From NCBI RefSeq assembly GCF_002946835.1, contig NZ_CP026652.1, forward strand, positions 2,170,001 through 2,234,000: DNA of 64,000 nt, read 5' to 3'. The notes beneath the pieces were generated by a model that was not told where the DNA came from, did no database searches, and saw only the letters and a program-made list of their open reading frames with translations. How positions within the stretch are numbered: the stretch's first letter is position 1; every line of letters starts with the position of its first letter. Below, one piece after another: positions 1,098 to 51,172 of the stretch. Made by a program: the position numbers and the translations under genes. This stretch comes from Streptomyces dengpaensis (GTDB lineage: Bacteria > Actinomycetota > Actinomycetes > Streptomycetales > Streptomycetaceae).

Positions 1098-4000
1098 AGC
1101 TGCTCCGGTCCGGCCTCCGCCGAATCCGCGCGCGGTGCCGGGATCATCGTGCTCTCCTGCCGCACCGGGTCCTCGCGGCGCAGCCGCCGGGTGCCGTCCC
1201 ATTCCCAGCGGGTGACGAGCACCGCCGCGACCTCGTCGATCCGCGACAGCTGCGCGATGGCGATGCCCGGCACCTGCGGATAGCAGGCCCATTCCCGCTC
1301 ACTGGTCATCACCACGTCGAGGTCGAAGGCGTGCAGCAGGCTGAGGCACTTGGCGCGTGAGTCGTCGTCCACTCCGGCGAACGCCTCGTCGAGGGTGACC
1401 AGACGGGGCGCGTACGGGCTGCCGGCGCTCGCGTAGTGCGAGGAGGCGGCGGCGAACAGCGGCACGGACACAGCGAGGACCCGCTCGCCACCCGAGGCAG
1501 GGCCGGTGGCCGGGACCCAGCGTCCGTGCTGGTGCCGCTCGACCCCGAACTCGTGCCAGGTGCGGTAGTCGAGTGCGGCCGTGAGGTGCTCGAGCCAGCT
1601 GCCGGACGCGTCGTCGGTGTGCTGCCGGGCGATCTGGGCCTGCAGGAATTCGCCGACGGCCGCGCGGTCCTCAGAGGTCCAGGCGTCGGCCGACTGGCGG
1701 AGGCGGTCACGGGCCTGGCCGAGGCCGGCGGGGGCCTTGCGGGAGGCCCGCCACACGAGCCGCAGCTTCATGCCGGTGGAGGTGGGACGCTCCTCCAGCT
1801 CGACGTTCATGTCCCGTACCTGCCGTTCGGCTGCCCCCATCAATTCCTGGAGCGTGCCCGCGACCTCGGTGATCAGGTGGGTTTCGAGGATCTCCCGCTC
1901 TCGTGCGGTGAGGATGCGGGTGAGTTCGCCGACCTCGGCGGCCAGCGCCTCGGCGAGTTCGGGCACGGCGCGTTCACGGCCCTGGTAGACGATGTCGACG
2001 ACCACGCCGTCCTCCACCATCCGGGCGGAGGCGCTGTGTCCGTGCCGGGACAGGGTGTCCTGGAGGGTCTTGAGTTCCTCGCTGAGGCGGCGCTGCACAC
2101 GTTCCCAGGCGGCGTCCGAGTCGTCGGTCGCCGACAGACCCGCTTCGAGGGCGCGGGCCAGCGCGACGGCGGGGGTGGCGGCCCAGGGGTCACCGTCCGC
2201 GGCAGGCACGGGAAGTTCGGGCAGGGCGACCGCGATCAGGCCGGTGGCCGTGAACCGCTGAAGCGACGCGATGGCCTCCGTGCGTGCCTCGGCGGCCTCC
2301 GTCAGGCCCTTTTCCAGCTGTTCGATGCGACCTTCGGCCTTGCCTGCCGCCCGGTCGGCCTCGGCGTGGCGCTTCCGTGTGAGCTGCTGATCGGCTTCGC
2401 AGGTGCGCAGCGCCTCGGCGGTCTCGGCCAGCCGCCGCTGAAGTTCGGCGACGGCGGCGCCCACCGTCGAGCGCAGGGTGGTATGGCGCTCGTCCGCGGC
2501 GGCCGCCTCGCGCCCGGCCTCCTTCGCACGCAGCGCCAGTTCGGCGGCCCGGTCCCCTGCTTGTCCGGCCTCGGTGGCCTCCTCCTCCGCCTGGCGGGCC
2601 ACCTCGCCCCGCTCCCGCAGGGCAGGCCACAGGGCGGCCAGGACGGCTGCGAGAGAACCGAGGGCGTCACGCACGGCGGACAGCCCCACCGGGTCGGCGG
2701 GCAGCCCCAGATCAGCGGCAGTCCCGGCGAGTTCGGCGGCTGCCCGCTCGGCCTGTTCGGCCGCTTCGGTGAGGTCGGCGGCCCTTTCCTCGCGCCGCGT
2801 ACGGGCCCGGCGTACCGTCTCGGCGGTGGCGGCCACCTGGGCATGTGCCTGGGTGAGGGTGCGCTCGTCGGGTACCGCTGCCAACTCGCCGTCGAGGGTA
2901 CGCCGACGGGCGGCCACCGCGTCGAGTGCGGCCGTGACGGCGTCCATCTCGCCCTGGAGCGCGGCGAGTTCGGTGCGCAGGGCAGCGATACGAGCTCGCC
3001 GTGCGGCATCCCGCGCACCCTCGCCGATGTACTCGGCGGCAGGCTTGGTCCACCGGCCGTCCAGTGTGCCGATCCGGAAACGTCCGTCCGACGCGGCCCA
3101 GGTCCCGGCTTCGCCGTCCGCTGCACCGCCGATGGCCGCGAGCAGCCGCGCCACTGTCTCCTCGCCCACCGCAGCGGCCTGGGCGTCCCCGTGGTCCACG
3201 GCCGGCCGCAGCAGGCCGGCGAGCGATGCGCCGTCCACCGGGCCGGTGGCCGGCGAGATCAGGACGTCGTGGCCGTCGGCGGCCAAGACCGAGCCGTCGG
3301 GGAGGACCCAGGCGTCCAGCATCCCGGACGCTTCGAGTGCCGCCTCCAGCCCGGCGCGTTCCCGCTCCGGGAGTCCGTCGCGGAAGTCCACCAGCCGCCA
3401 CAGGGGTGCGCCCGGCAGCCGCTCGCGCAGGCCCGGGGTCCGGGTGGGCGGAGGCTGGGGTGCTCGGCGCCCGCCTGCTTCGAGCATGGCCAGTTCCTGG
3501 CGCACCTGGTCGGTGTGCTCCGTCAGCTCCGCCCGCCGACGGTCGGCTTCGGCGGCCTGCTCGGCCAGTTGCGCAGAGGCGGTGCTGTGGGCCCGGGTGG
3601 CGTGGGCACGCGCCGGGTAGGGCCCATCGAGGTGCAGGACCCAGTCCTGGAGTTCGTCCAGCAGACCGACCGGATCGGGGTAGGCCAGCTCGGTCCAGGC
3701 GCGGGCACGTTCCCGTACGTCGTCGAGCAGGGCCCGGCCGGCAGCGGCTGCCTCGGCCTCGGCCTGAAGGTGTGCCGTGGTGGCCTCGCCGAGATCGGTG
3801 TCCGCTTCGTCCAGCCGAACGGCTTGCCGGCGGCGTTCTTCGGCCGCGCGCACGGCCGCCTCGGCGAGACCCTCCACGTGGACCAGGACACGGTGCCCTC
3901 GTTCCACCGACTGTTCGGTGGCGCGCCGCAGTTCCGTGTCGGACAGCCGGTCGCCTTCGGGCAGCTCGATCCGGGCGGCGGCGGCCGCCTCGCTTGCCTT

Positions 4001-34309: not shown

Positions 34310-34649
34310 GGCCTCCATCCTTGCGTACGGGGTGGCCGCGTGGCCCAGGTCCGACTACTCTGCTCCGCCGGACAGGTCCGATCACGAGGCGTATGGGATC
34401 GGGCACATGCTGTACAGCCGATGGCCACCACGCGGCAATGACGCCGAAACGGATGGGAAACGGCAGACCGGGCATTCTCCGGCCGAAAGCCGCCAAGGAC
34501 GGCCTCGCCGGGACGCACCGTACGACCGGTGGTGCGAACATCGGCACGGGGCGTGCACGGACGCGGTACGCGTGCTCGCAGGCGACCGCGGTACGTGTTC
34601 GTAGGCGGAAGGTGACCGGCCACCGCGAGGGGCCGAGAAGAGAGTGACG

Positions 34650-35453
34650 ATGACCGAGGCACGGGGGTCGGCCGGCCTGAACGGCGCAACGCACGCCCGG
34701 CACACGCCCGGCACACCTTGCTGGGTGAGTCTGATGGTGCACGGGATGGCCGCGACCCAGGAGTTCTACGGAGCGTTGTTCGGCTGGGAGTTCCGGCCGG
34801 GACCGCAGCAGCTCGGCCCGTACGTGCGGGCCCTGCTCGGCGGCCAAGAGGTGGCGGGGATCGGCCAGTTGCCACCCGACCGGCATCTGCCCATCGCATG
34901 GACGCCGTACCTCGCCTCGGACGACGTGGACCAGACCGCCGCGACGGTCCGCCACAGCGGTGGCACCGTGGGCGTCGGCCCCCTCGACGCCGGGGAGGCC
35001 GGGCGGCTGGCGATCGCCTCGGACCCGGCGGGCGCCGTTTTCGGCATCTGGCAGGCGGCCGCCCACCTGGGCACCGGAATCACTGGCGTGCCGGGCACGC
35101 CCGCCTGGAACGAGCTCGTGACCCGCGACTCCGAGAGCGTCGTCAAGTTCTACCAAGGGGTCTTCGGCTTCGAGCAGGAGGCGGTCGTCTCGGCCGACTT
35201 CGACTACGTGACCCTCCACGTCGAGGGCCGCCCGGTGGCCGGCATCCACGGCGTCGGACGCGGTCTGCCCCGCGACCGCGGCCCGCACTGGATGACGTAC
35301 TTCGAGGTCGCGGACGTGGACGACGCCGTCGACCATGTCCTCGAGCTCGGCGGGCACCTCCTGAAGGCCGCGCGCGACTCGCCGTACGGGCGGGTGGCGA
35401 CGGTGGCGGATCCGGAGGGAGCGATGTTCTCGCTGATCCACTCCGTGCGCTGA
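34650..35453 (+). CDS. VOC-family protein with two glyoxalase-like domains
   Basis: This 267-aa protein has two vicinal-oxygen-chelate repeats (about residues 24-125 and 148-262). Recognisable segments are PCWVSLMVHGMAATQEFYGA and WNELVTRDSESVVKFYQGVF, each opening a beta-alpha-beta unit. Similar Streptomyces proteins are annotated as hydroxylases or bleomycin-resistance relatives without proof. A GTG six bases upstream (34644) is an alternative start; AGAGAG lies before both. The substrate is unknown. Confidence 0.82.
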   Translation: MTEARGSAGLNGATHARHTPGTPCWVSLMVHGMAATQEFYGALFGWEFRPGPQQLGPYVRALLGGQEVAGIGQLPPDRHLPIAWTPYLASDDVDQTAATVRHSGGTVGVGPLDAGEAGRLAIASDPAGAVFGIWQAAAHLGTGITGVPGTPAWNELVTRDSESVVKFYQGVFGFEQEAVVSADFDYVTLHVEGRPVAGIHGVGRGLPRDRGPHWMTYFEVADVDDAVDHVLELGGHLLKAARDSPYGRVATVADPEGAMFSLIHSVR

Positions 35454-35525: not shown

Positions 35526-36125
35526 TCAGGAGGAGGCGATCGGCAGTACGTCCGGCGACAGGGCGCCCGCGCGGCTCGCCGCGGCCGTCATACGGCGACG
35601 GTGGTGCCGACGGCACAGCACTTCGTAGCCGATGTCCTCCGACTGGTTGACGTCGCCGACGACCACCTGGGCGCCCTCGACGACCATCTCGCCGCCTATG
35701 GTGCGGGCGTTGTGGGTGGCGCGGGCGCCGCACCAGCACAGGGCCTCGACCTGGAGCACCTCGACCCGGTCCGCGAGCTCCACCAGCCGCTGCGAACCGG
35801 GGAAGAGCTTGGAGCGGAAGTCTGTGGTGATGCCGAAGGCGTAGCCGTCGAGGCCCAGGTCGTCGACCACACGGGCGAGTTGGTCGATCTGCTCCGGCGT
35901 GAGGAACTGCGCCTCGTCGGCGATCACGTAGTCCGCGCGCCCGCCCTGGGAGAGGTGGTCGACCAGGTAGACGTACAGGTCCTGCCCGTCCTCGACCTCC
36001 ACCGCGTCCGTGACCAGGCCCAGGCGCGACGAGAGCTTGCCCTCGCCAGCGCGGTCGTCCCGCGTGAAGATCATGCCCTGCAGACCCCGCGCCGAGCGGT
36101 TGTGCTCGATCTGGAGAGCCAGCGT
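35526..36125 (-). pseudogene. tdk: headless native thymidine kinase
   Basis: From codon 17 onward this reads as a normal Streptomyces thymidine kinase (TLALQIEHNRSARGLQG), through the general base DEAQFL, the zinc cysteines CWCGARATH and CRRHH, to a proper stop. Upstream of position 36125 homology stops abruptly: the P-loop residues SGTMDCGKS are replaced by unrelated sequence with no start codon. The first in-frame ATG (36074) is 17 codons later, so any product would lack the ATP site. Codon use is normal for the chromosome, unlike the second copy at 42828-43478. The two proteins are about three quarters identical by eye. It is the left remnant of a tdk gene split by an island. Confidence 0.85.
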
Positions 36126-36405
36126 CCTTTTGCTTGACCATCCACCATCTGCTGATCTCTCAGAATGAGGCCCACGCTCCCGGTCGTGACGCGAGAATCG
36201 TCGGCTGGGCGATGGATACCGACGTCTCCGGCGGCGGGTGTGTCAATTCAGACACTCCCTGTCGCGGCGGTACGCATCCGTGCTGAGGTCCGGATGACTG
36301 CGATGGCGGCCCTCCTCTGCGTGACCGGCCTCCGTCCCCGTGGGTCGCGATCAGCCGAGCAGGAAAGGCAACGCGACCACCACGACGAGCAGCAGGAAGG
36401 AGGAG

Positions 36406-36436
36406 GTGCCCCGACCGCACGAAGCGGGCCGGGGCA
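36406..36436 (-). terminator. hairpin after the secreted phosphoesterase gene
   Basis: GTGCCCC-GACCGC pairs with GCGGGC-CGGGGCAC around ACGAA. It lies 29 bases beyond the stop at 36465. The remaining gap to 36126 shows no recognisable gene, only a 28-codon hydrophobic frame (36351-36437, minus) that overlaps this stem. Confidence 0.65.
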
Positions 36437-36464
36437 CCGGGTGGAGCAGACAGCAGCGGTGGAG

Positions 36465-39400
36465 TTAACCGACCGCCACCGGCTGGGTGGCGGTCACCGC
36501 GTTGATGGTCACGGACAGCGATCCGCTGCCCGGCCGCAGTGCGGTGAGCACCCCGGTCCGCGGGTCGTAGGCGGCGATGTCCTGCGTCCCGGCCTGGTCG
36601 GCCGGGCCGATGTGGATGTTGTCCGTTCCCGACCAGTCGGCGCTGACCGGGTAGGCCACAGGCACCGTGACTCCGCGCTGGGTCACCCTCGCCCGGATGT
36701 CGGTCTGCGCTCCGGCGGACAGCTCACCGACCGGGGCGAGGGCAAGCTTGTCCACGTGCGCCCGGAACTCGACCTGGATCCACGGGTGGGCCGAGCGCGA
36801 CTCGGGCGCCGCGCGGTGCCGTGCGTCGACGGGGGCCCGGTCGCCGTGGGGGTCGATGCCCACCAGCGACCAGCCGGTGAAACCGCCGTCTCCGACCGAT
36901 GTGGACGGCGCCTTGCCGCTGTTGCCGTTGACGAGGTACTGGACGCCGTCGATGCTGTTGGCGGAGAACTGGCCGACGTGGGACCCGATGAAGGCCGCGC
37001 CCTTGCCGGTGTCGCGGCGGAAGTCGGCCAGCCAGTCCTCGACGACGGCCGCCTCGGTCCGGTTGGTCATCTGGCTGTTCGCCAGCGGCGACGGGTCACG
37101 CGGCGGGTGGTGCCACATCGCGACGACACCGTTGACGCTGTCGTCCTCGGCCGCCTTGTCGAGCTCGTCCCGGAGCATCTCCCACTGGTCGAATCCGCCA
37201 CCGTTCAGCGTGCCGAGCGAGGAGTCCAGCAGGATGAAGCGGGTTCCCTCATGCTCGAAGGTCCGGTGGGTGTCGCCGAACTCCTTGCGGAAGTTGTCCT
37301 GGCTGCCCGAGCCGTAGACCTCGTGATTGCCCGGGTTGTAGTACCAGGGCACCTTGTCGCCGAGCTCCTCGTCGATGATGCGGTGCGCCAGCGCCAGGTC
37401 CTCGGGGTAACCGGTGTCGACCCAGTCTCCGTTGATGACGATGAAGTCCGGATCGGCCGCCAGCGCCTCGCGGAGGGTACGCCGCGCGGCGTCGACGAGC
37501 GGGCTGTCCGGGTCGGCGGCGATGAACTGGGCGTCCGAGACGACGGCGAAGCGCCAGCGGCGCGAGTCGCCGGCCACGGAGCCGTCCTGCAGGATGACCG
37601 GGTCCGGCACCACGGGCGCGGCGGGCACCTGGACCTGCGGCGCGACCCGGGCCGTGATGTCGTCGACCAGCACGGAGCCGGTGTACTGCTTGCTCGCCGA
37701 CGTCTCGATCGTGTAGAAGCGGTTGACGCTCACCGGGAACGCGACGGTCTGGGGGATCTGCACCTCCATGTACCGCCAGCCGGTCCAGGTGATGTAGGGC
37801 CCGTAGAGGGACTGGGACTTGCCCTGGGCGTCGATGATGTTGAACGCGGTCCACTCGCCCTTGCCCGAGCCGTACACCCAGGCGCCCAGCGACAGCGGCT
37901 GGCCGGGAAGCTGAATGGGCTTCGGCGAGGTGGCGTAGGCGGTCCTGGTCGCCGTGGACCGGGTGAAGTCGTAGTTCAGCTTCAGGGCGGGGCCGCCGTC
38001 GCGACCGGTCGCCGCCTCGACCGAGCCGGCACCCCGGGCGGTGCCGAACCGCCACTGTGCGGCATCGGCCATGTCGGCGGCCACGACATCCTGGAGCCCC
38101 ACGCTGACCGGCACCTGGGTGACAACGCCCTGCACGGTGGCGGTGACCACGGTGCCGAGGCTGTCCTTCTTCGGCGTGACCGAGAAGGTGCCCTCCTCGG
38201 TGGGGGTGAGCTCCAGCAGCTCGTGGTCGTAGTCGAGCGTGACGTCGGCCGGCTCGATGGGGGCCTGGAAGCCGTCCCCGTCGTAGCCGACGATGCCGAA
38301 CTCTCCGGTTGCCTTCCCGTCCTTGAGCGAGATCTTGTCCACGTCCGGCCGGGTGCGGGCGAGTTCACCGAGCACGGTCATCCGCAGCCGTCCGGTGGCG
38401 TCCCCGGCCTGCGCGACCACCTCGGCGTCGCCCGGCCGGCGGGCGGCGAAGGTGCCGTCCTGCTCGACCTTGCCGACCGCGGACACCGCCACATGCCAGT
38501 GCGGTTCCGCACTGACGGGCGCGTAGGTCTCGTCGTGGCCGAGCGCGTCCAGTTCACGGGTGAGGCCGGGGAAGACGCGGCTGAGCGACTCGTCCTCCTC
38601 GTCGGCTGTCGGCGCGACCCGCATGCCGGTGAGTCGGCCGCTGCCTTCCTCCGCGAAGAGCGCGAGGCCGTTCGGGACAGGGCGCTCGGCACCGTCGGAG
38701 GGGGTGTTCTCCAGGTCGACGCCCTCCTCGCCGGCCTCGCGGGCGACGAGGGTGGAGGAGCCGCCGCCATCGAGGTTGAGCGCGTCGTTGGCCCCGAGCT
38801 CCTTCATGAAGGAGCCGAGCTCGTCGTACGACATGCCGCGGCTCTCGGCGCTGCGCCCGTCGATGGTGACCAGGAACATCTTCTTTCCGTCGGCCGAGAA
38901 GCCCACGGACGTACGGGGATGGACAGCCTTGTCGCCCTGCGGCTGTACGACGCCGTCGCGCAGCAGCACGGTGTTGCCGCCGATCGCGAAGCCCATGTCC
39001 TTGCCGTCCTCGGAGCGCGGCGCGTAGTCCAGCGAGACGGCGTCGCCGACGCTCAACGCGGCCATGGCGTCGGCTCCGGAACCACGGCCGAGGAGCACGA
39101 AGCCGTTCTCGGGGATGGCACCGGACCCGGCCTGGGTGGCGGTGGCCGTCACCTTGCCGTCGACGACCGTGACCTCACGGACCGGACCGGTGCCTGCCGA
39201 GCCGCTCCGCGAGTAGCTGCCCCACAGCGAGGTGTAGGCGCCGATGCCGTTGGCCGGAAGCTGGTGCTGGTTGAGCCCATCGAGGCGCGCGGTGCGCCCC
39301 TCGGGCATGGACACCGAGCCCTCGAGGAACATCCGGGTCATCCGCCCGATACCCTCGGCATCGACGCCGACGGCGTTGTTCCAGCCCGGAACGGGGCCCT

Positions 39401-39917
39401 TGACCGCGCCGTCCTGGGAGACACCGATGCCCAGAGGGGCACTGGAGTTGTTGATGTCGAAGAAGTCGCCGTTCACGGCGGCGACCGCACCCTCGCGCTC
39501 GGCCTGCTCGGACAGCGCCTGGCTCCGTGCCACTTCACCGGGGAACAGATAGTCGCCGGACAGGCCGTCCGTGCCGAGGTCGGCCACGAGCACGTCGCCA
39601 CGCATGAAGCCGACGGAGTCGAGCCACTGAAAGGAGGTCAGGTCGAGCCCGGGAGCCACCGGCCGCTTGTCCTCATCGAGGACGATGCGCCGGTCTCCGG
39701 CTTCCCCGAGGACCAGGTTCGGTTCGTCGAGCTTGGACGAGGCCGCCGGGGTCCGCCCCAGCTCGGGATCGGCTCCCTCAAGTACCGGGGCGGAGTTGAG
39801 GGGTCCGTGGTCGTCACCGTCTGATTCGCTTGCCGCTGCCGAGGGGGCCATGGAACCCATGACCAGCCCTGCCGAGAAAGCAGTCACCCCAAGCCGTATC
39901 AATGTATTTCGCACCAC
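36465..39917 (-). CDS. secreted phosphodiester glycosidase / metallophosphoesterase fusion
   Basis: This 1150-aa protein has a signal peptide (RNTLIRLGVTAFSAGL, then cleavage near SAAA-SES). An NAGPA-type phosphodiester-glycosidase domain (about residues 90-430, with VNGDFFDINNSSAPLG and the motif ALNLDGGGSSTL) follows, then beta-rich Big-like and carbohydrate-binding-like modules (about 440-780). Next is a metallophosphoesterase (about 800-1040) with SDAQ, INGDWVD, NPGNHEVYG, MWHHPP and GSHVG, and a C-terminal beta domain. The first MPE motif has Gln where His is usual. It should act outside the cell on phosphodiester-linked sugars or teichoic-acid-like polymers. Two adjacent GTG codons are possible starts, with no strong ribosome site. 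It lies inside the tdk island. Confidence 0.82.
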   Translation of the reverse strand: MVRNTLIRLGVTAFSAGLVMGSMAPSAAASESDGDDHGPLNSAPVLEGADPELGRTPAASSKLDEPNLVLGEAGDRRIVLDEDKRPVAPGLDLTSFQWLDSVGFMRGDVLVADLGTDGLSGDYLFPGEVARSQALSEQAEREGAVAAVNGDFFDINNSSAPLGIGVSQDGAVKGPVPGWNNAVGVDAEGIGRMTRMFLEGSVSMPEGRTARLDGLNQHQLPANGIGAYTSLWGSYSRSGSAGTGPVREVTVVDGKVTATATQAGSGAIPENGFVLLGRGSGADAMAALSVGDAVSLDYAPRSEDGKDMGFAIGGNTVLLRDGVVQPQGDKAVHPRTSVGFSADGKKMFLVTIDGRSAESRGMSYDELGSFMKELGANDALNLDGGGSSTLVAREAGEEGVDLENTPSDGAERPVPNGLALFAEEGSGRLTGMRVAPTADEEDESLSRVFPGLTRELDALGHDETYAPVSAEPHWHVAVSAVGKVEQDGTFAARRPGDAEVVAQAGDATGRLRMTVLGELARTRPDVDKISLKDGKATGEFGIVGYDGDGFQAPIEPADVTLDYDHELLELTPTEEGTFSVTPKKDSLGTVVTATVQGVVTQVPVSVGLQDVVAADMADAAQWRFGTARGAGSVEAATGRDGGPALKLNYDFTRSTATRTAYATSPKPIQLPGQPLSLGAWVYGSGKGEWTAFNIIDAQGKSQSLYGPYITWTGWRYMEVQIPQTVAFPVSVNRFYTIETSASKQYTGSVLVDDITARVAPQVQVPAAPVVPDPVILQDGSVAGDSRRWRFAVVSDAQFIAADPDSPLVDAARRTLREALAADPDFIVINGDWVDTGYPEDLALAHRIIDEELGDKVPWYYNPGNHEVYGSGSQDNFRKEFGDTHRTFEHEGTRFILLDSSLGTLNGGGFDQWEMLRDELDKAAEDDSVNGVVAMWHHPPRDPSPLANSQMTNRTEAAVVEDWLADFRRDTGKGAAFIGSHVGQFSANSIDGVQYLVNGNSGKAPSTSVGDGGFTGWSLVGIDPHGDRAPVDARHRAAPESRSAHPWIQVEFRAHVDKLALAPVGELSAGAQTDIRARVTQRGVTVPVAYPVSADWSGTDNIHIGPADQAGTQDIAAYDPRTGVLTALRPGSGSLSVTINAVTATQPVAVG

Positions 39918-40015
39918 CGAACGATGACTGAGTCTGTTGCTGGGACTGCGTCCTGCGAGTGACCAGATCCGGAACCTTTTGATCGATCATTTGACTTGCC
40001 GTCGCCTGTGCGTTC

Positions 40016-40437
40016 ATGTGGCGTGAGGTCGCGCACCGCCGACAGTCTGGCGCCCTGCCCGGGACTCAAACCTGCGACGAATCTCAGACCGAGCAGGCCG
40101 GACGCGACCCCGACGTGGTCCTGGAAGCCACTTACGGCTGGTACTGGGTGGCCGACGTCCTGCAGGCCGCCGGGGCACGCGTCCACCTGGCCCACCCGCT
40201 GGGCGTGAAGGGCTTCGCTTATCGGCGCGTGAAGAACGACATCCGCGACGCCGCGGACCTGGCCGACCTGCTGCGGATGGGACGGCTGCCGGAAGCCTGG
40301 ATCGCACCACCGCAGGTCCGCGAGCTGCGGGAACTAGCTGCGGGAACTAGTGCGCTAGCGGGCCAAGCTCGTCGCTTTGCGCTCCGGGCTGAAGGCCCAG
40401 GTGCACACCGTGCCTCGTCGCCGCTCGCATCTCGCAA
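40016..40437 (+). pseudogene. IS110-family transposase remnant
   Basis: From about 40109 the frame reads DVVLEATYGWYWVADVLQAA and KNDIRDAADLADLLRMGRLP, the DEDD-type catalytic domain of IS110/IS1111 transposases. Past PQVRELREL the frame breaks. A duplicated GCGGGAACTAG and an internal stop (GTGCGCTAGCGG, where the family has a tyrosine) shift it to a second frame, with RAKLVALRSGLKAQVHTV, which also stops being recognisable by about 40430. The N-terminal part and the whole C-terminal Tnp_20 domain are missing. Neither ends nor target duplications are visible. It is a decayed fragment within the tdk island. Confidence 0.82.
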
Positions 40438-40671
40438 GGTGCGAGGAGGAGCGCACTGTTGACGGTGCTCTTGTGCGGGGCTCCCTTGCACATTCCGGTC
40501 CGACGCCCCACGGAATCACCGACACACGGAATCATCGAAAGAGGGCGCCTGCTGTCGGATGCGGAGACCTACGTGGGCTCAGGCACCTCCCATCACCGTT
40601 CACAGCGTGAACCTCAAGCAGCTCCGTAGTTCCAGGGGCACTTGCGAGGTGAGAGACCTCGGGTTCCGCGA

Positions 40672-42111
40672 CTATCGGGGCTGCCACGCCCGTACGAGGT
40701 CCTCCGGTCCCCAGTGCGCGGTCAGCGGCAGATCATCGACCACCCCGCAGCGGGAGACCGCGACCAGCGGAGTGTCCGGCGCGGTACCGGGGACAGCGAG
40801 CATGTCGCGTACCAAGGCGTCGTACTCATGACGGCCGAAGGGCTGGGTCTCCAGCCACTTGACCGATCCGACGAAGTGCACCTGCCGGGCCACCGGTTCG
40901 CGGTCTGCACCGATGAGATCGATCTCGGGGTTGTTTTGACGGTTCCACCAACCGCCGATGGCCTCGGTCTCGGGCCACTCGTCATTGGGCATCAGACGCA
41001 GCAAGGACTCGCGGATCAGTGGCTCGACCGCTCGCCCGCGCCAAGTGGTCCATGACCGCTCGATGCGTTCCAGCGCCAAGTCACCGCGGCCACGCTCGAT
41101 GAGTGGGATCGCGCGCGCCAGAAAGGCCAGCCAGAACCGCAGATACGGGTCGGCGATCCGGTAGCGCTTGTTCTTGCTGTCCGGCTTGACGGACAGGGGG
41201 AGATCAGCGGCCAGGACTCGCTTGGCCTGCAGCATGGCCAGCAGCGGGGAGAGCGTGCCGGACGGCAGCGCGCTGGCGCCGCCGGCCTGGGCTGCGATCG
41301 CGCTGAACGTGCGCTCACCGCTGCCAACCGCTTCCAGTACAGCCCGTGAGTGCGAAGCCTCAGGAAATTCGCCCAGCAGGGACAGCTCGCCAGCCACCAG
41401 CAGGGGCGAGAGAGGATTGGCGACCGAAGCCTGCAAGAACGCCGTACGCCCCATTCCCGGCCGCCATGACTGCACGATCTCGGGGAATCCTCCAGTGATC
41501 AACTGGGCGTCGACGGCCCCTGCGGCGTCGAGCTCGGTCATGGCCTGCACGTCGGCCAGGTTCAGGGGACGGACGGTCATTTTCGCCGCCCGGCCGAAGA
41601 ACGGGCGCCCGTACGACTGCAGTGCCTCCATCACCGATGTATCGCTGCCAACCAGCAGCAGAAGCACGGGCTTGGAAGAGAGGTGACGGTCCCAGACAGT
41701 TTGGAGTGCGCCCTCGAATTCCTGATCCTGCTCGACCAGCCAGGGCACCTCGTCAATCACCGCGATGCTGAGTGAGTCATCGGGTACCGCGAGCGCCAGC
41801 GAGCGCAGGGCCTGGTTCCAGTCCTGCGCCTGGAGGCCGGCGACCAGCTCCACCCCCGGCAGTGGGGACTGCGCGAGGGTCGCGGCAAAGTCGGCGCGCT
41901 CCGTCACAGGGTTACGCCCCCGGGTGGCCTGGAACACCACGTACGGCGCTCCCGAGCGGTCGCAGAACTCCTGGACCAGTCGCGACTTCCCCACTCGGCG
42001 CCGGCCCGTCATGATCACAGCCCGCCCTCGAGTGGCTCCAACACCCTCTGCCACCGTCCGGTACTGCTCGGCCAGCAGTTCAAGATCTCCGGCCCGACCT
42101 TGGAACTCCAC
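40672..42111 (-). CDS. AAA-type ATPase with DUF234-like C-terminus
   Basis: This 479-aa protein has a P-loop (TGRRRVGKSRLV, residues 35-46) and Walker B (SIAVIDEVPWLVE), the archaeal-type ATPase_2 fold. Winged-helix segments follow (about 270-330), then a DUF234-like tail resembling a PD-(D/E)XK nuclease. In the tail, NPEIDLIGAD supplies the acidic residue, but the following ExK reads GSVKW, so the glutamate is gone and the nuclease is probably dead. Such ATPases are stand-alone mobile or defence-related genes of unknown role. The start is a GTG at 42111. It belongs to the tdk island, and its promoter region is unusually A/T-rich. Confidence 0.75.
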   Translation of the reverse strand: MEFQGRAGDLELLAEQYRTVAEGVGATRGRAVIMTGRRRVGKSRLVQEFCDRSGAPYVVFQATRGRNPVTERADFAATLAQSPLPGVELVAGLQAQDWNQALRSLALAVPDDSLSIAVIDEVPWLVEQDQEFEGALQTVWDRHLSSKPVLLLLVGSDTSVMEALQSYGRPFFGRAAKMTVRPLNLADVQAMTELDAAGAVDAQLITGGFPEIVQSWRPGMGRTAFLQASVANPLSPLLVAGELSLLGEFPEASHSRAVLEAVGSGERTFSAIAAQAGGASALPSGTLSPLLAMLQAKRVLAADLPLSVKPDSKNKRYRIADPYLRFWLAFLARAIPLIERGRGDLALERIERSWTTWRGRAVEPLIRESLLRLMPNDEWPETEAIGGWWNRQNNPEIDLIGADREPVARQVHFVGSVKWLETQPFGRHEYDALVRDMLAVPGTAPDTPLVAVSRCGVVDDLPLTAHWGPEDLVRAWQPR

Positions 42112-42124
42112 GACACACCCCAGG

Positions 42125-42165
42125 CGATTAACGTAGATAGATTATTACGTAGATTGAATCTTACT
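42125..42165 (-). promoter_or_regulatory. A/T-rich promoter with ACGTAGAT direct repeat
   Basis: ACGTAGAT occurs at 42131-42138 and 42147-42154, a 16-base period, in the only really A/T-rich stretch of the window. It is 14-54 bases upstream of the ATPase start. On the minus strand it gives TAATAAT/TAATCT elements that could be a -10 box, with the repeats as operator. Confidence 0.5.
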
Positions 42166-42527
42166 TCATCCCGGGCGACCTAGCGGATCGAGTGCAGAGG
42201 CGGGTACGGAGGGCGAGATTGCGGTTGGAGCCAACACCCTGCTCGGCGAGGGTGACTGTCAGGGGGCGCGAAGGCGGTGGCTCCACCAGCCCCACGAACG
42301 AAACTCACACGCAACGAGCATCGCGGCTGATCAGAAGCCGCTCGTGGAGCTGCGGAACTGAGATCTCTACCGAACCCGGGGCGGTTCAAACCGTTGTGCG
42401 GCCCCTTCCGGGGCCGACAGCGCGAAGCCGCTTACGTACTTGATCTCCGGACGGCGCCCTGCCGGAGGGTCAGCACCAAGTCAGCACAGGGACAGGAAAC
42501 AGGCTGATCCAGCCGGAGAAAACAGGA

Positions 42528-42555
42528 AGGGGCCAGACCCGAACATCTGGCCCCT
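42528..42555. terminator. hairpin in the decayed part of the island
   Basis: AGGGGCCAGA (42528-42537) pairs perfectly with TCTGGCCCCT (42546-42555), followed by GACCTAGGGTTTCTT. It is a terminator-like hairpin. The 42112-42827 stretch otherwise holds no convincing gene. A minus-strand tail DKVMKFRFNV before a stop at 42610-42612 may be the end of a lost gene. Confidence 0.6.
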
Positions 42556-42827
42556 GACCTAGGGTTTCTTAACCTGACCAGCCACTTCAGCCGATCAAGG
42601 AATCAGGCGTCACACGTTGAAGCGGAACTTCATGACTTTGTCCCGTCACCGCCAGCCTGTGCGTGCCGGCGTCCGGGTTGATCAGGACACACCCCTGCCG
42701 TGGGGCTTCTCGTTACAGCGAGGCGGTCACTGTCGCCACCAGCGACCCAACGGTAGCCTGCGGCGATTCCGCTTTCCGGGGCCTTCGGCGAGCGAGCCAG
42801 ACCTGAGCCCTGGCGTCACAGCCGGGG

Positions 42828-43478
42828 TCAGGCGGGGGTGACTGGCAATACGTCGGGCGACAGCGCCGCTGCCCGGGCCGCCGCGCTCGTCATCCGCTTG
42901 CGGTGATGGCGTCGGCACAGCACCTCATAGCCGACCTCATCGGCCGGCCTGTCAACATCCCCCACCACAACCTGGTCGCCCTCGACCACCATCGCCCCGC
43001 CCACCGTGCGGGCGTTGTGCGTTGCCCGGGCGCCGCACCAACACATCGCCTCGACCTGCAACGTCTCTATACGGTCCGCCAGCTCGATCATCCGCTGCGA
43101 ACCGGGGAACAGCTTGGTCCGGAAGTCCGTGGTGATGCCGAACGCGAAGACGTCCATCTCCAGGTCATCCACGACACGCGCCAGCTGGTCGATCTGCCCG
43201 GGTGCGAGGAACTGCGCCTCATCCACGATCGCGTAATCGACCCGCGCGCCGTGCGACATCTGCTCCACCAGATACCCGTACAGATCCATACCCGGAGCAG
43301 CCTCGACCGCCTCCGTCACCAACCCCAGACGCGACGACAGCTTCCCCTCACCCGCACGGTCATCACGCGTGAAGATCACACCCTGCAAGCCGCGCGCCGA
43401 ACGGTTGTGCGCAATTTGAAGCGCCAAAGTCGACTTCCCGCAGTCCATCGTTCCGGAGAAGAACACCAGCTCGGGCAT
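42828..43478 (-). CDS. tdk: thymidine kinase, complete second copy
   Basis: This 216-aa enzyme phosphorylates thymidine with ATP for the salvage of dTMP. The P-loop SGTMDCGKST (residues 8-17), general base in IVDEAQFLAP, lasso/substrate segment and zinc cysteines (CWCGARATH, CRRHH) are complete. It begins MPELVFFSGTMDCGKS, the standard Streptomyces N-terminus. From codon 17 the codons turn unusual (ACT TTG CTT CAA ATT, many GTG/GGT/GAT). I read this as the native first 16 codons fused to an element-borne body. It starts 49 bases after the alkaline-phosphatase-family gene, in the native operon position, so it should be expressed. The other, native body is at 35526-36125. Confidence 0.92.
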   Translation of the reverse strand: MPELVFFSGTMDCGKSTLALQIAHNRSARGLQGVIFTRDDRAGEGKLSSRLGLVTEAVEAAPGMDLYGYLVEQMSHGARVDYAIVDEAQFLAPGQIDQLARVVDDLEMDVFAFGITTDFRTKLFPGSQRMIELADRIETLQVEAMCWCGARATHNARTVGGAMVVEGDQVVVGDVDRPADEVGYEVLCRRHHRKRMTSAAARAAALSPDVLPVTPA

Positions 43479-43527: not shown

Positions 43528-44769
43528 TCAGGAACGTACTTGCAGGAGGGGCACGAGCTGCTCGGCGGGGGTCATCGAGCCGTGGTTGCCGACCATCGCC
43601 GACTCCTTCGGCTCCCGCTCCGACGCGATGATCAGGACGTCGTCGCGGGCCGCCGCGACGACGTCGCCGATCCGGGCGTACACCCGCTCGTCGACGTGCG
43701 GGCCGAACCAGCCCGCCGCGATCGCCTCGTCCCGCGAGGCCACCCAGAACTGCTCGCCCAGCACCTCGCGCCAGCAGGTCAGGACGTCCGCCTCGGCGCC
43801 CGGCACCGCGTAGGCGTGCCGGGCGCGGCCCTCGCCGCCGAACAGGGCGACGCCTGCGCGCAGCTCCCAGTCCTCGTCGAAGTCGATACGGTGCTGTTCG
43901 TCGAAGGGGATGTCGATCATGCCGTGGTCGGCGGTCACGTACAGGGCGCTGCGCGGCGGCAGTTGCTCCGCGAGGCGCTGGACGAGGCGGTCGACGTACA
44001 TGAGCTGGCCGCGCCAGGGGTCCGAGTCGACGCCGAAGCGGTGGCCCTTGCCGTCCACCTCGGCGTAGTACGTGTAGACCAACGAGCGGTCAGCGGCGGC
44101 CAGTTGCTCGGCCGCGAGGTCCATGCGCTCCTCGCCGGACAGCCGCCCGTGGAACGTCCCGCCGCTGAGCGCGATCTTTGTCAGGGGCGTGTTCTGGAAG
44201 GCGGGCGACGAGACCTGGGCGGTGTGCACGCCCGCCGCGTCGGCCAGCTGGAAGACCGTGGGGTAGGGCTGCCAGGCGCGCGGTTCCGTCCATGGGTTCC
44301 AGCGGAGCTGGTTCATCAGCTCGCCGGTCTGGGGGTTGCGCGCGGTGTAGCCGGGCAGGCCGTGCGCACCGGGCGGGAGGCCGGTGCCGACGGAGGCGAG
44401 GGAGGTCGCGGTGGTCGCGGGGTAGCCCGCGGTGATCGGGCGGCCGGTGCCGCCGCGCGAGGACGCCAGGAGTGACGTCATGAACGGGGCCTCGTCGGGG
44501 TGCGCCTTCAGCTGCTCCCAGCCGAGACCATCGATCAGGAAGACGCAGTTCCGGTCGGCCTCGGTCAGTTCCGGGATCGCGGCGGTCATGCCGGGTACGG
44601 CCATGCCTGCGGCGAGCGTGGGCAGCAGGTCGGCCAGCGACCCGGCGCCGTATTCGGGGACGGGTGCGGAGCCGACGGCGAGCGGTTCCGGGTGGTCCCA
44701 GGTGGAAGCGGGCGGGGCGGGGGCGAAGCGCCCTCCATCATGGGCGGCGGGGGAGGACGGGTGAGACAT
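43528..44769 (-). CDS. alkaline-phosphatase-superfamily nucleotide pyrophosphatase/phosphodiesterase
   Basis: This 413-aa protein belongs to the type I phosphodiesterase/nucleotide pyrophosphatase branch. Recognisable parts are VFLIDGLGWEQL with the first metal-binding aspartate, TATSLASVGTG with the nucleophile threonine, YAEVDGKGHRFG, YVTADHGMIDIP, and the final metal histidine in GNHGSMTPAE. No membrane segment or signal peptide is seen, so it should be cytoplasmic. It shares one base with the DUF5998 stop (TGATG) and lies 49 bases before tdk. It is next to tdk in other Streptomyces, which suggests nucleotide turnover. Confidence 0.87.
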   Translation of the reverse strand: MSHPSSPAAHDGGRFAPAPPASTWDHPEPLAVGSAPVPEYGAGSLADLLPTLAAGMAVPGMTAAIPELTEADRNCVFLIDGLGWEQLKAHPDEAPFMTSLLASSRGGTGRPITAGYPATTATSLASVGTGLPPGAHGLPGYTARNPQTGELMNQLRWNPWTEPRAWQPYPTVFQLADAAGVHTAQVSSPAFQNTPLTKIALSGGTFHGRLSGEERMDLAAEQLAAADRSLVYTYYAEVDGKGHRFGVDSDPWRGQLMYVDRLVQRLAEQLPPRSALYVTADHGMIDIPFDEQHRIDFDEDWELRAGVALFGGEGRARHAYAVPGAEADVLTCWREVLGEQFWVASRDEAIAAGWFGPHVDERVYARIGDVVAAARDDVLIIASEREPKESAMVGNHGSMTPAEQLVPLLQVRS

Positions 44770-50833: not shown

Positions 50834-50859
50834 GGAGAGGCTGATCCTTTCCTTCCTTC

Positions 50860-51000
50860 TCGCCTACCGGGTTAGCTGACGGGTTCGGAGCAGGAAGGTC
50901 TCCTACGGACCCCCTCCGAGGAGGGCCGTCCGATTCACCCCAGGGACTGCGTGTGGGTCCCCGGCTCCCCTGGCTCGCGCCGTACGGGGACTCGGCGATG
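50860..51000 (-). promoter_or_regulatory. c-di-AMP riboswitch (ydaO-yuaA motif)
   Basis: On the minus strand, the conserved core reads in order CCGGGGACCCAC, GGGGTGAATC, CCGTAGGAG and CCGAACCCGTCAGCTAACCC, ending GGTAGGCGA. The outer stem pairs TCGCC (near 50998) with GGCGA (near 50860). This is the ydaO-type aptamer that binds c-di-AMP and turns transcription off. It lies 27 bases before the M23 peptidase start. The remaining leader up to 51172 shows no gene. Confidence 0.88.
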
Positions 51001-51172
51001 ACTGTCCGGTGCCGCGGGCGCGGCGCACTGCCTGACGAACAGCCGGACCGACGCTAAACGGGACATCTTTCAAACAACAAACGGATCACGGCTTTTGTAG
51101 CGCATGCCACAGGTCAGACAGGCAACCTCCCTACCAATACGGACAACTGAGGACGAAGGCAGGGTAAAAGGA

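Follow-up and report, generated by a model that had tools for sequence, protein, structure and literature searches.

Elements that split a gene and restore it are already known. One earlier study reportedly dealt with integration into protein-gene targets and with regulated gene integrity, and SCC elements form tandem composites. As the available text of PMC4383910 describes them, tRNA and tmRNA islands split their target and restore it from island sequence, with the displaced fragment at the far end, and can be found in tandem arrays. Other systems enter protein genes: SCCmec and the enterococcal cassette chromosome (ECC) use large serine recombinases at the conserved housekeeping gene rlmH and carry variable cargo (PMC6222049, whose available text notes that tandem ECCs were not observed directly), and the dusA-specific islands supply a new 5' end to their target and have an integrase family of their own (available text of PMC4482086).

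The island analyzed here lies in a window of 64,000 nucleotides from Streptomyces dengpaensis (contig NZ_CP026652.1) and has an intact thymidine kinase gene (tdk) on one edge and the native displaced fragment of this gene on the other, the arrangement of a gene-restoring island. The logic of splitting, restoring and displacing is the same as in the tRNA/tmRNA islands (Islander). Those, however, usually have tyrosine integrases, RNA genes as targets and a target fragment in attP, whereas the tdk islands have a serine integrase, a protein gene as target and a 2-bp core, with a whole replacement gene having its own start in seven genomes. SCC enters the 3' region of rlmH, while the tdk islands cut at codon 17 of 216 and replace nearly the whole protein; they do not belong with SCC, the target being tdk and the CcrA and CcrB models reaching 58.7 of 900 and 23.2 of 700 bits, far below cut-off. 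The dusA islands replace the 5' end of their target, whereas here the body is replaced. The resemblance to the Bxb1-like and actinophage serine integrases consists in an attP dyad around a 2-bp core, the top-listed phage match having ~32% identity. The best NCBIfam match is the fdxN element excision recombinase XisF (NF041201), below cut-off, and the tdk islands give no sign of programmed excision. The earlier note on this DNA knew of no described element targeting tdk, and our literature search (supplements and subscription journals lying outside its reach) found no account of one either; “tdk” and “thymidine kinase” have no occurrence in the main text of PMC12884075, as far as available. What appears new is the likely tdk target together with an attB in the P-loop.

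The two tdk copies and the attachment site

The two tdk copies are on the minus strand. The left one (35526..36125) is the displaced host gene, a headless body running from codon 17 to the stop: it covers only positions 38-176 of the Pfam TK profile, its homology to the right copy opens at codon 17 (base 36125) and the P-loop is absent. The right copy (42828..43478, minus strand) is a complete TK in operon position, host-like until codon 16 and foreign beyond, in which the host-like head (codons 1-16, 43431..43478) is fused in frame, with intact translation, to a foreign body (codon 17 to the stop, 42828..43430) identified by tree, GC3 and dN/dS. By coordinate arithmetic, its codon 16/17 boundary is 43431/43430. 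The two bodies are 76.6% identical across 585 nt, and GC3 falls to 0.824 in the right one, as against 0.933 in the left one and 0.935 in the adjacent host gene. Over its initial 50 nt the right copy is the same as at least seven host-clade relatives (G001, G003, G009, G016, G020, G026, G033), the sequences diverging afterwards; taken alone this is weak evidence, because the head is well conserved across the genus. Joining the host head to the left body in silico restores an open reading frame. On the head side lies the host operon gene (phosphodiesterase/nucleotide pyrophosphatase, 43528..44769, minus strand), and at the other island edge, past the displaced body, the host glyoxalase-like gene “voc” (34644..35453, plus strand). 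The earlier note had described these two copies, the left one reduced to codon 17 to the stop and the right one complete but shifting in codon use after codon 16, and its junctions are confirmed to the base. Its claim of a site-specific insertion at the codon 16/17 boundary is supported as well, this boundary being the crossover.

The crossover dinucleotide is AC, bases 1-2 of the Thr17 codon. On the attR side it is found at 36124..36125 (minus strand), placed there by alignment with the reconstructed sites of four other genomes, in which it is the centre of the attP dyad, and within the hybrid gene at 43429..43430 (minus strand). The P arm of attR (TGGTGGATGGTCAAGCAAAAGG, 36126..36147, minus strand) is common to other islands and, read on the plus strand, contains by eye a TTGACC resembling a -35 box. 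It matches the rcP' arms of seven islands at a mean of 13.3 of 22 positions (shuffled, 5.8), and all 23 P arms tested, this one included, match the rcP' arms of other genomes in the AC register, with means of 11.3-16.7 of 22 versus 5.6-6.0 after shuffling; these 23 are not independent tests, because the arms are related to each other. The set leaves aside G202 (near-identical to G150), G191 and three G070 fragments without P arm.

The attP site was reconstructed from the genomes in which both island ends are readable (G012, G281, G199 and G326); the islands of G199 and G326 are large or divided between two contigs, and their two ends may come from different insertions. The four sites show dyad symmetry at 17-18 of 28 positions in the AC register only (the next best register reaching 12), a value attained by 0-2 of 20000 shuffles, and the shared core is therefore 2 bp, as expected for a serine integrase. 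The symmetry of attB at the core is 5-8 of 28, so that attP is the more symmetric of the two around the 2-bp crossover, as it is for large serine integrases. In two of these genomes (G199, C7 ~195595-195640, and G326, C141 ~119920-119963), the integrase gene is preceded by a P-arm-like sequence that is joined to a non-tdk sequence, apparently common to both; this may reflect a modified attP or insertion at a different site.

Origin of the two bodies

With the operon neighbour as host reference for relatedness, 20 relatives have at least 84.2% identity in this gene and a full tdk, which is closer to the left body in 11 and to the right body in 9. In those 11 host-clade relatives, tdk is 84.8-89.6% identical to the left body and 74.9-78.2% to the right. 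Among all the bodies compared, the closest to the right one are that of G110 (86.3%) and then the island tdk of G199 (85.8%), whose hosts are more distant by the operon gene (76-80%).

In a tree of 76 tdk rows, the left body falls within a clade of 24 rows, formed by 17 empty-site relatives, three further single genes (from G026, G121 and G193) and the displaced bodies found in the window (G000), G199, G326 and G334. The right body is placed in a 19-row clade (support 99/89) together with the island tdks of G199, G326, G215, G263 and G639. Constraining it into the host clade costs 168.8 log units and is rejected (AU p 3e-36), a value which leans in favour of the 12-row clade used in the test, because this clade was drawn up after the identity table was known. 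These results bear out the reading of the right body as foreign and of the left one as native, and also dispose of the grouping with the host clade that would have contradicted it.

The locus itself decides which type is native: in 17 of 29 relatives' loci, 17-313 nt separate the glyoxalase-like gene from a full tdk that adjoins the operon gene, which provides the empty site that the earlier note had advised looking for. The left body is of the native type, because at this locus all 17 empty-site tdks are members of its 24-row clade. In the remaining 12 loci the glyoxalase-like gene is outside the stretch examined, and one of the stretches ends at a contig end. A tdk of the right-body clade occupies 6 of the 29 loci (G002, G007, G021, G022, G025, G029); each has a single tdk match, and the glyoxalase-like gene is near tdk in none of the six. 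Together with G308 and G313, which also have one tdk match of the right-body clade, they are probable cases of past passage, with the headless fragment gone or outside the stretch. The island tdks of G012, G281 and G334 lie outside this clade, and the islands therefore acquired tdk more than once. Against three near relatives, the right body shows a dN of 0.05-0.06 and a dS of 0.58-0.68 (dN/dS 0.07-0.09) and is thus under purifying selection.

Integrase, shared junctions and stacked elements

On the plus strand, 36 bases from the left junction, the window keeps a remnant of a tdk-associated large serine integrase (36161..36235), 25 residues long, which corresponds to residues 29-53 with 76% identity (tblastn E 1.5e-5; E 5.7e-7 in the junction flank). 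No integrase copy at E <= 1e-60 was found in the genome of the window, and the island itself has no functional integrase. The intact gene is found in related islands, the place where the earlier note had advised searching. In G012 it starts 37 bases from the headless tdk match, and its product matches PF07508 and PF00239, thus having both the resolvase N-terminal and the Recombinase domain. Copies with 70-100% identity are present in 5 of 392 Streptomyces genomes and in G639, from a second sample of 345 genomes which partly overlaps the 392. All six (G012, G281, G199, G334, G326, G639) have a duplicated tdk, and the five from the first sample fall among the 31 of 392 genomes with more than one tdk match (hypergeometric 2e-6). 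The integrase is full-length in four of the six (G012, G281, G199, G334), split by a frameshift in G326 and without residues 1-26 in the G639 match. It starts 37-38 nt from a headless tdk match in three (G012, G281, G334), and in G639, where a stub and a full tdk are also present, the headless tdk abuts it. In G199 it lies between two tdk copies, ~20 kb from the headless one, and in G326 a distance of 17 kb separates it from the full tdk, the headless body being on another contig. The smallest arrangement is a 2.5-kb element in G334 (G334:C28:299952-303123), consisting of headless tdk, integrase and full tdk, with little room for other cargo.

As for its relatives, the integrase scores 105.4 bits against NF041201 (cut-off 375 bits), and the nearest solved structure is entry 9iu2, a 500-aa integrase (E 7e-37) which we take to be Bxb1 integrase. 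The top-listed match in phage records has the ~32% identity given above and none of the 1251 matching records reaches 60%, as is the case for the 480 plasmid records; viral contigs yielded no close copy (in a search that detects close relatives only) and no match to the P|tdk junction pattern. More distant integrases (41-45% identity) occur in G128, G212, G244, G259 and G443, with one tdk match each, and also in G233 and G281, which both have tdk arrays; six regions with such integrases, inspected by eye, showed no clear target gene.

The junction recurs in other Streptomyces, where the earlier note had proposed to look for it: a pattern built from the headless copies (<=2 mismatches) gave 12 matches in 7 of 392 genomes, and the reversed-pattern control gave none, so that the recurrence exceeds chance. 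The tdk search itself had a match in 379 of the 392, with the 31 genomes above having more than one (by reading of the table), and the DNA was read for 25 of these 31, the others being G031, G065, G134, G170, G178 and G331. A P arm is joined to a headless body in 16 of the 25 (G000, which is the window, G012, G070, G107, G121, G150, G191, G199, G202, G223, G233, G281, G326, G334, G345 and G401), and two (G215, G263) have a stub with no P arm detected. Neither a P arm-tdk junction nor a stub was found in the remaining seven (G110, G132, G193, G218, G251, G363, G409), among which G363 resembles a single broken gene. Wherever they are within the stretch, the operon gene adjoins the complete tdk, and the glyoxalase-like and rhodanese genes are on the side of the headless bodies.

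Several headless bodies behind P arms are found in a single genome (five in G281, one of them with a degenerate arm, four in G233, and two each in G345 and G012), which shows that elements stack at tdk. The DNA beyond the junctions differs, with some flanks recurring: a two-gene element is ~95% identical in G223, G233 and G345 and partial in G191, and a flank is 98% identical over 2.5 kb in G070 and G281. When 25 junction flanks of 2.5 kb were searched with three integrase queries, a match below E 0.1 appeared only in the window and in one G326 flank. That most junctions are without integrase suggests mobilization in trans or loss of the integrase.

Three further headless bodies in G070 (C214, 117103, 122629 and 128127) have no usual P arm upstream, and two of them match tdk only from about codon 8 onwards; they may belong to a second integration family or be decayed. 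In G121 (C131, tdk at 2778-3379 and 44102-44746) the genome's own tdk lies between both neighbours, in an apparently empty locus, and a P arm with a tdk body, whose first codons are by eye of the island type, is found ~41 kb away, beyond the rhodanese gene. The 147 kb between the tdk att ends of G012 (G012:C1:2483001-2629946) include genes that by eye look like core genes (homoserine dehydrogenase, threonine synthase, prfA and ATP synthase genes), and the chromosome therefore seems rearranged around the island.

Concerning cargo, the window's island encodes a protein of 1150 aa with phosphodiester glycosidase and metallophosphatase domains (36465..39917, minus strand; PF09992, PF00149), a fragment of an IS110-type transposase (40016..40462, plus strand; PF01548, positions 43-144 of 155) and an ATPase_2/DUF234 protein which matches the PADLOC candidate defence model PDC-S27 (40672..42111, minus strand; E 9e-21). 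Elsewhere, G150 carries an RHS protein that bears a T7SS signal, and G281 a glutamine-deamidase-type domain with Imm35 as well as an NB-ARC/TPR protein. One of the two cargo genes of G223 has the Pfam domain PRiA4_ORF3, and this pair had no PADLOC or NCBIfam match. Pfam detected no virion genes among 10 cargo ORFs of G223, G150 and G281. Since the arrays contain T7SS-linked polymorphic toxins together with an immunity domain and an NB-ARC/TPR protein, the site may be a hotspot for competition genes.

Restoration of tdk and rival explanations

The earlier note supposed that the tdk sequence brought by the element spans codon 17 to the stop, and this part needs correction, while its view that the host keeps a complete tdk in operon position is upheld. 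In seven genomes (G012, G199, G215, G263, G281, G326, all among the 392, and G639, from the second sample), the host stub runs to codon 17 and is followed by a P' arm and then by a complete tdk with its own start, 131-176 nt from stub start to island tdk start. In these intact cases, stub head and island head are identical at 36-41 of 45 nt (80-91%), a similarity that might permit a small deletion from one to the other. Stub and P' arm are present in five of the six integrase-bearing genomes, with G334 as the exception, and the stub is missing in 19 of the 25 multi-match genomes read, including the window and G334. Hybrids of the window type lack both stub and P' arm. The tdk body was tried in the role of P' arm and this was unsupported: hybrid bodies match the P arm at 5-9 of 22 positions (shuffle mean ~5.8), and in none of five cases tested does their symmetry peak at the core register.

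These observations can be joined in a single explanation: the island in the window is very probably what is left of an integrative element that relied on a large serine integrase, with attB in the Walker A codons of tdk, a site at which elements can stack. The predicted recombinase would join attP with tdk at the AC of codon Thr17 and would in this way be the maker of the junctions, a role assigned to it from the sequences. On the operon side a stub of codons 1-17 would persist; the old body, now headless, would end up at the opposite edge, with the P arm and the integrase gene in front of it. The element would bring a complete tdk with its own start, so that thymidine kinase would be kept. 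Since this tdk again contains the target codons, further elements could stack there, many of them without integrase at the junction. The window's island would subsequently have undergone recombination of the stub head with the element head, in which the P' arm was lost and the host start became joined to the foreign body; with the integrase mostly lost as well, the island would now be locked in. Points against this explanation are the distance between integrase and headless body in G199 and G326, the nine of 20 near relatives whose tdk is nearer the right body and the G121 junction at 41 kb from an apparently empty locus. To these can be added that two of the six integrase copies are incomplete, that the island tdks of G012, G281 and G334 fall outside the right-body clade, that three G070 bodies have no P arm and that seven of the 25 multi-match genomes read have neither junction nor stub.

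Three other explanations can be weighed against this one. The hybrid could arise directly, if attP itself contained tdk from codon 17 to the stop, as tDNA islands carry a target fragment in attP according to the available text on Islander (PMC4383910). This would account for the 19 of 25 genomes without stub, including the window and G334, and for the host-like head which reaches the core in the window and also in G022, despite a body closest to islands with another codon 16. The P arms of hybrid islands, however, match the P' arms of other islands and not the tdk body, and five of six integrase genomes have stub, P' arm and full tdk. Additionally, the head of G007 already has TCA at Ser16, otherwise seen only in island heads, and its breakpoint therefore seems to be upstream of the core, inside the head. 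Direct fusion is therefore, in our assessment, unlikely. Because the tdk body has no P'-arm symmetry while the P arms do match P' arms, we regard the window's hybrid as a later deletion product, the P' arm having probably been lost by recombination between the two heads. G334, and also G022, whose breakpoint is at the core, fit either course. Since G334 has an intact integrase gene together with its hybrid, hybrids are not necessarily old.

A homologous exchange of tdk for foreign DNA, in which no integrase acts at the site, would agree with a window that lacks an intact integrase and with the near relatives closer to the right body, and recombination between heads is already part of the preferred explanation; but it is very improbable in view of the exact base common to the junctions, the neighbouring P arm and remnant of the integrase, and the islands with both att ends. 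Even less credible is an old tandem duplication with a left copy decayed at its 5' end, which the earlier note had named as what would overturn the insertion. The copies are indeed neighbours in the same orientation, but the tree, within its model, rejects left and right as sisters (p 2.7e-11), the orthologue is the left body, and other genomes repeat the junction sequence next to different DNA. The tree and the common junctions were the grounds for discarding both tandem duplication and simple homologous replacement.

Returning to the integrase-driven element, we lean slightly towards a broader scheme, in which an integrase aimed at the P-loop codons travels with a complete, differently coded rescue tdk. 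As this gene would rebuild the attachment site, elements could pile up and mobile tdk lineages could spread through the genus, until loss of the P' arm fixes an island in place. If so, the host would from then on rely on the island for its thymidine kinase, and the formerly mobile element would have become a permanent resident. The gene tdk is likely a new integration target, of a serine integrase with P-loop coding sequence as attB. A housekeeping gene almost wholly replaced by passing islands would mislead tdk phylogenies, given the right-body-clade tdk in 6 of 29 relatives' loci. For Streptomyces genetics, a new integrase whose attP is defined and whose attB is endogenous could be of use.

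Elsewhere in the window, and unrelated to the island, there is a c-di-AMP riboswitch (RF00379, 85.4 bits) at 50847-51007 on the minus strand.
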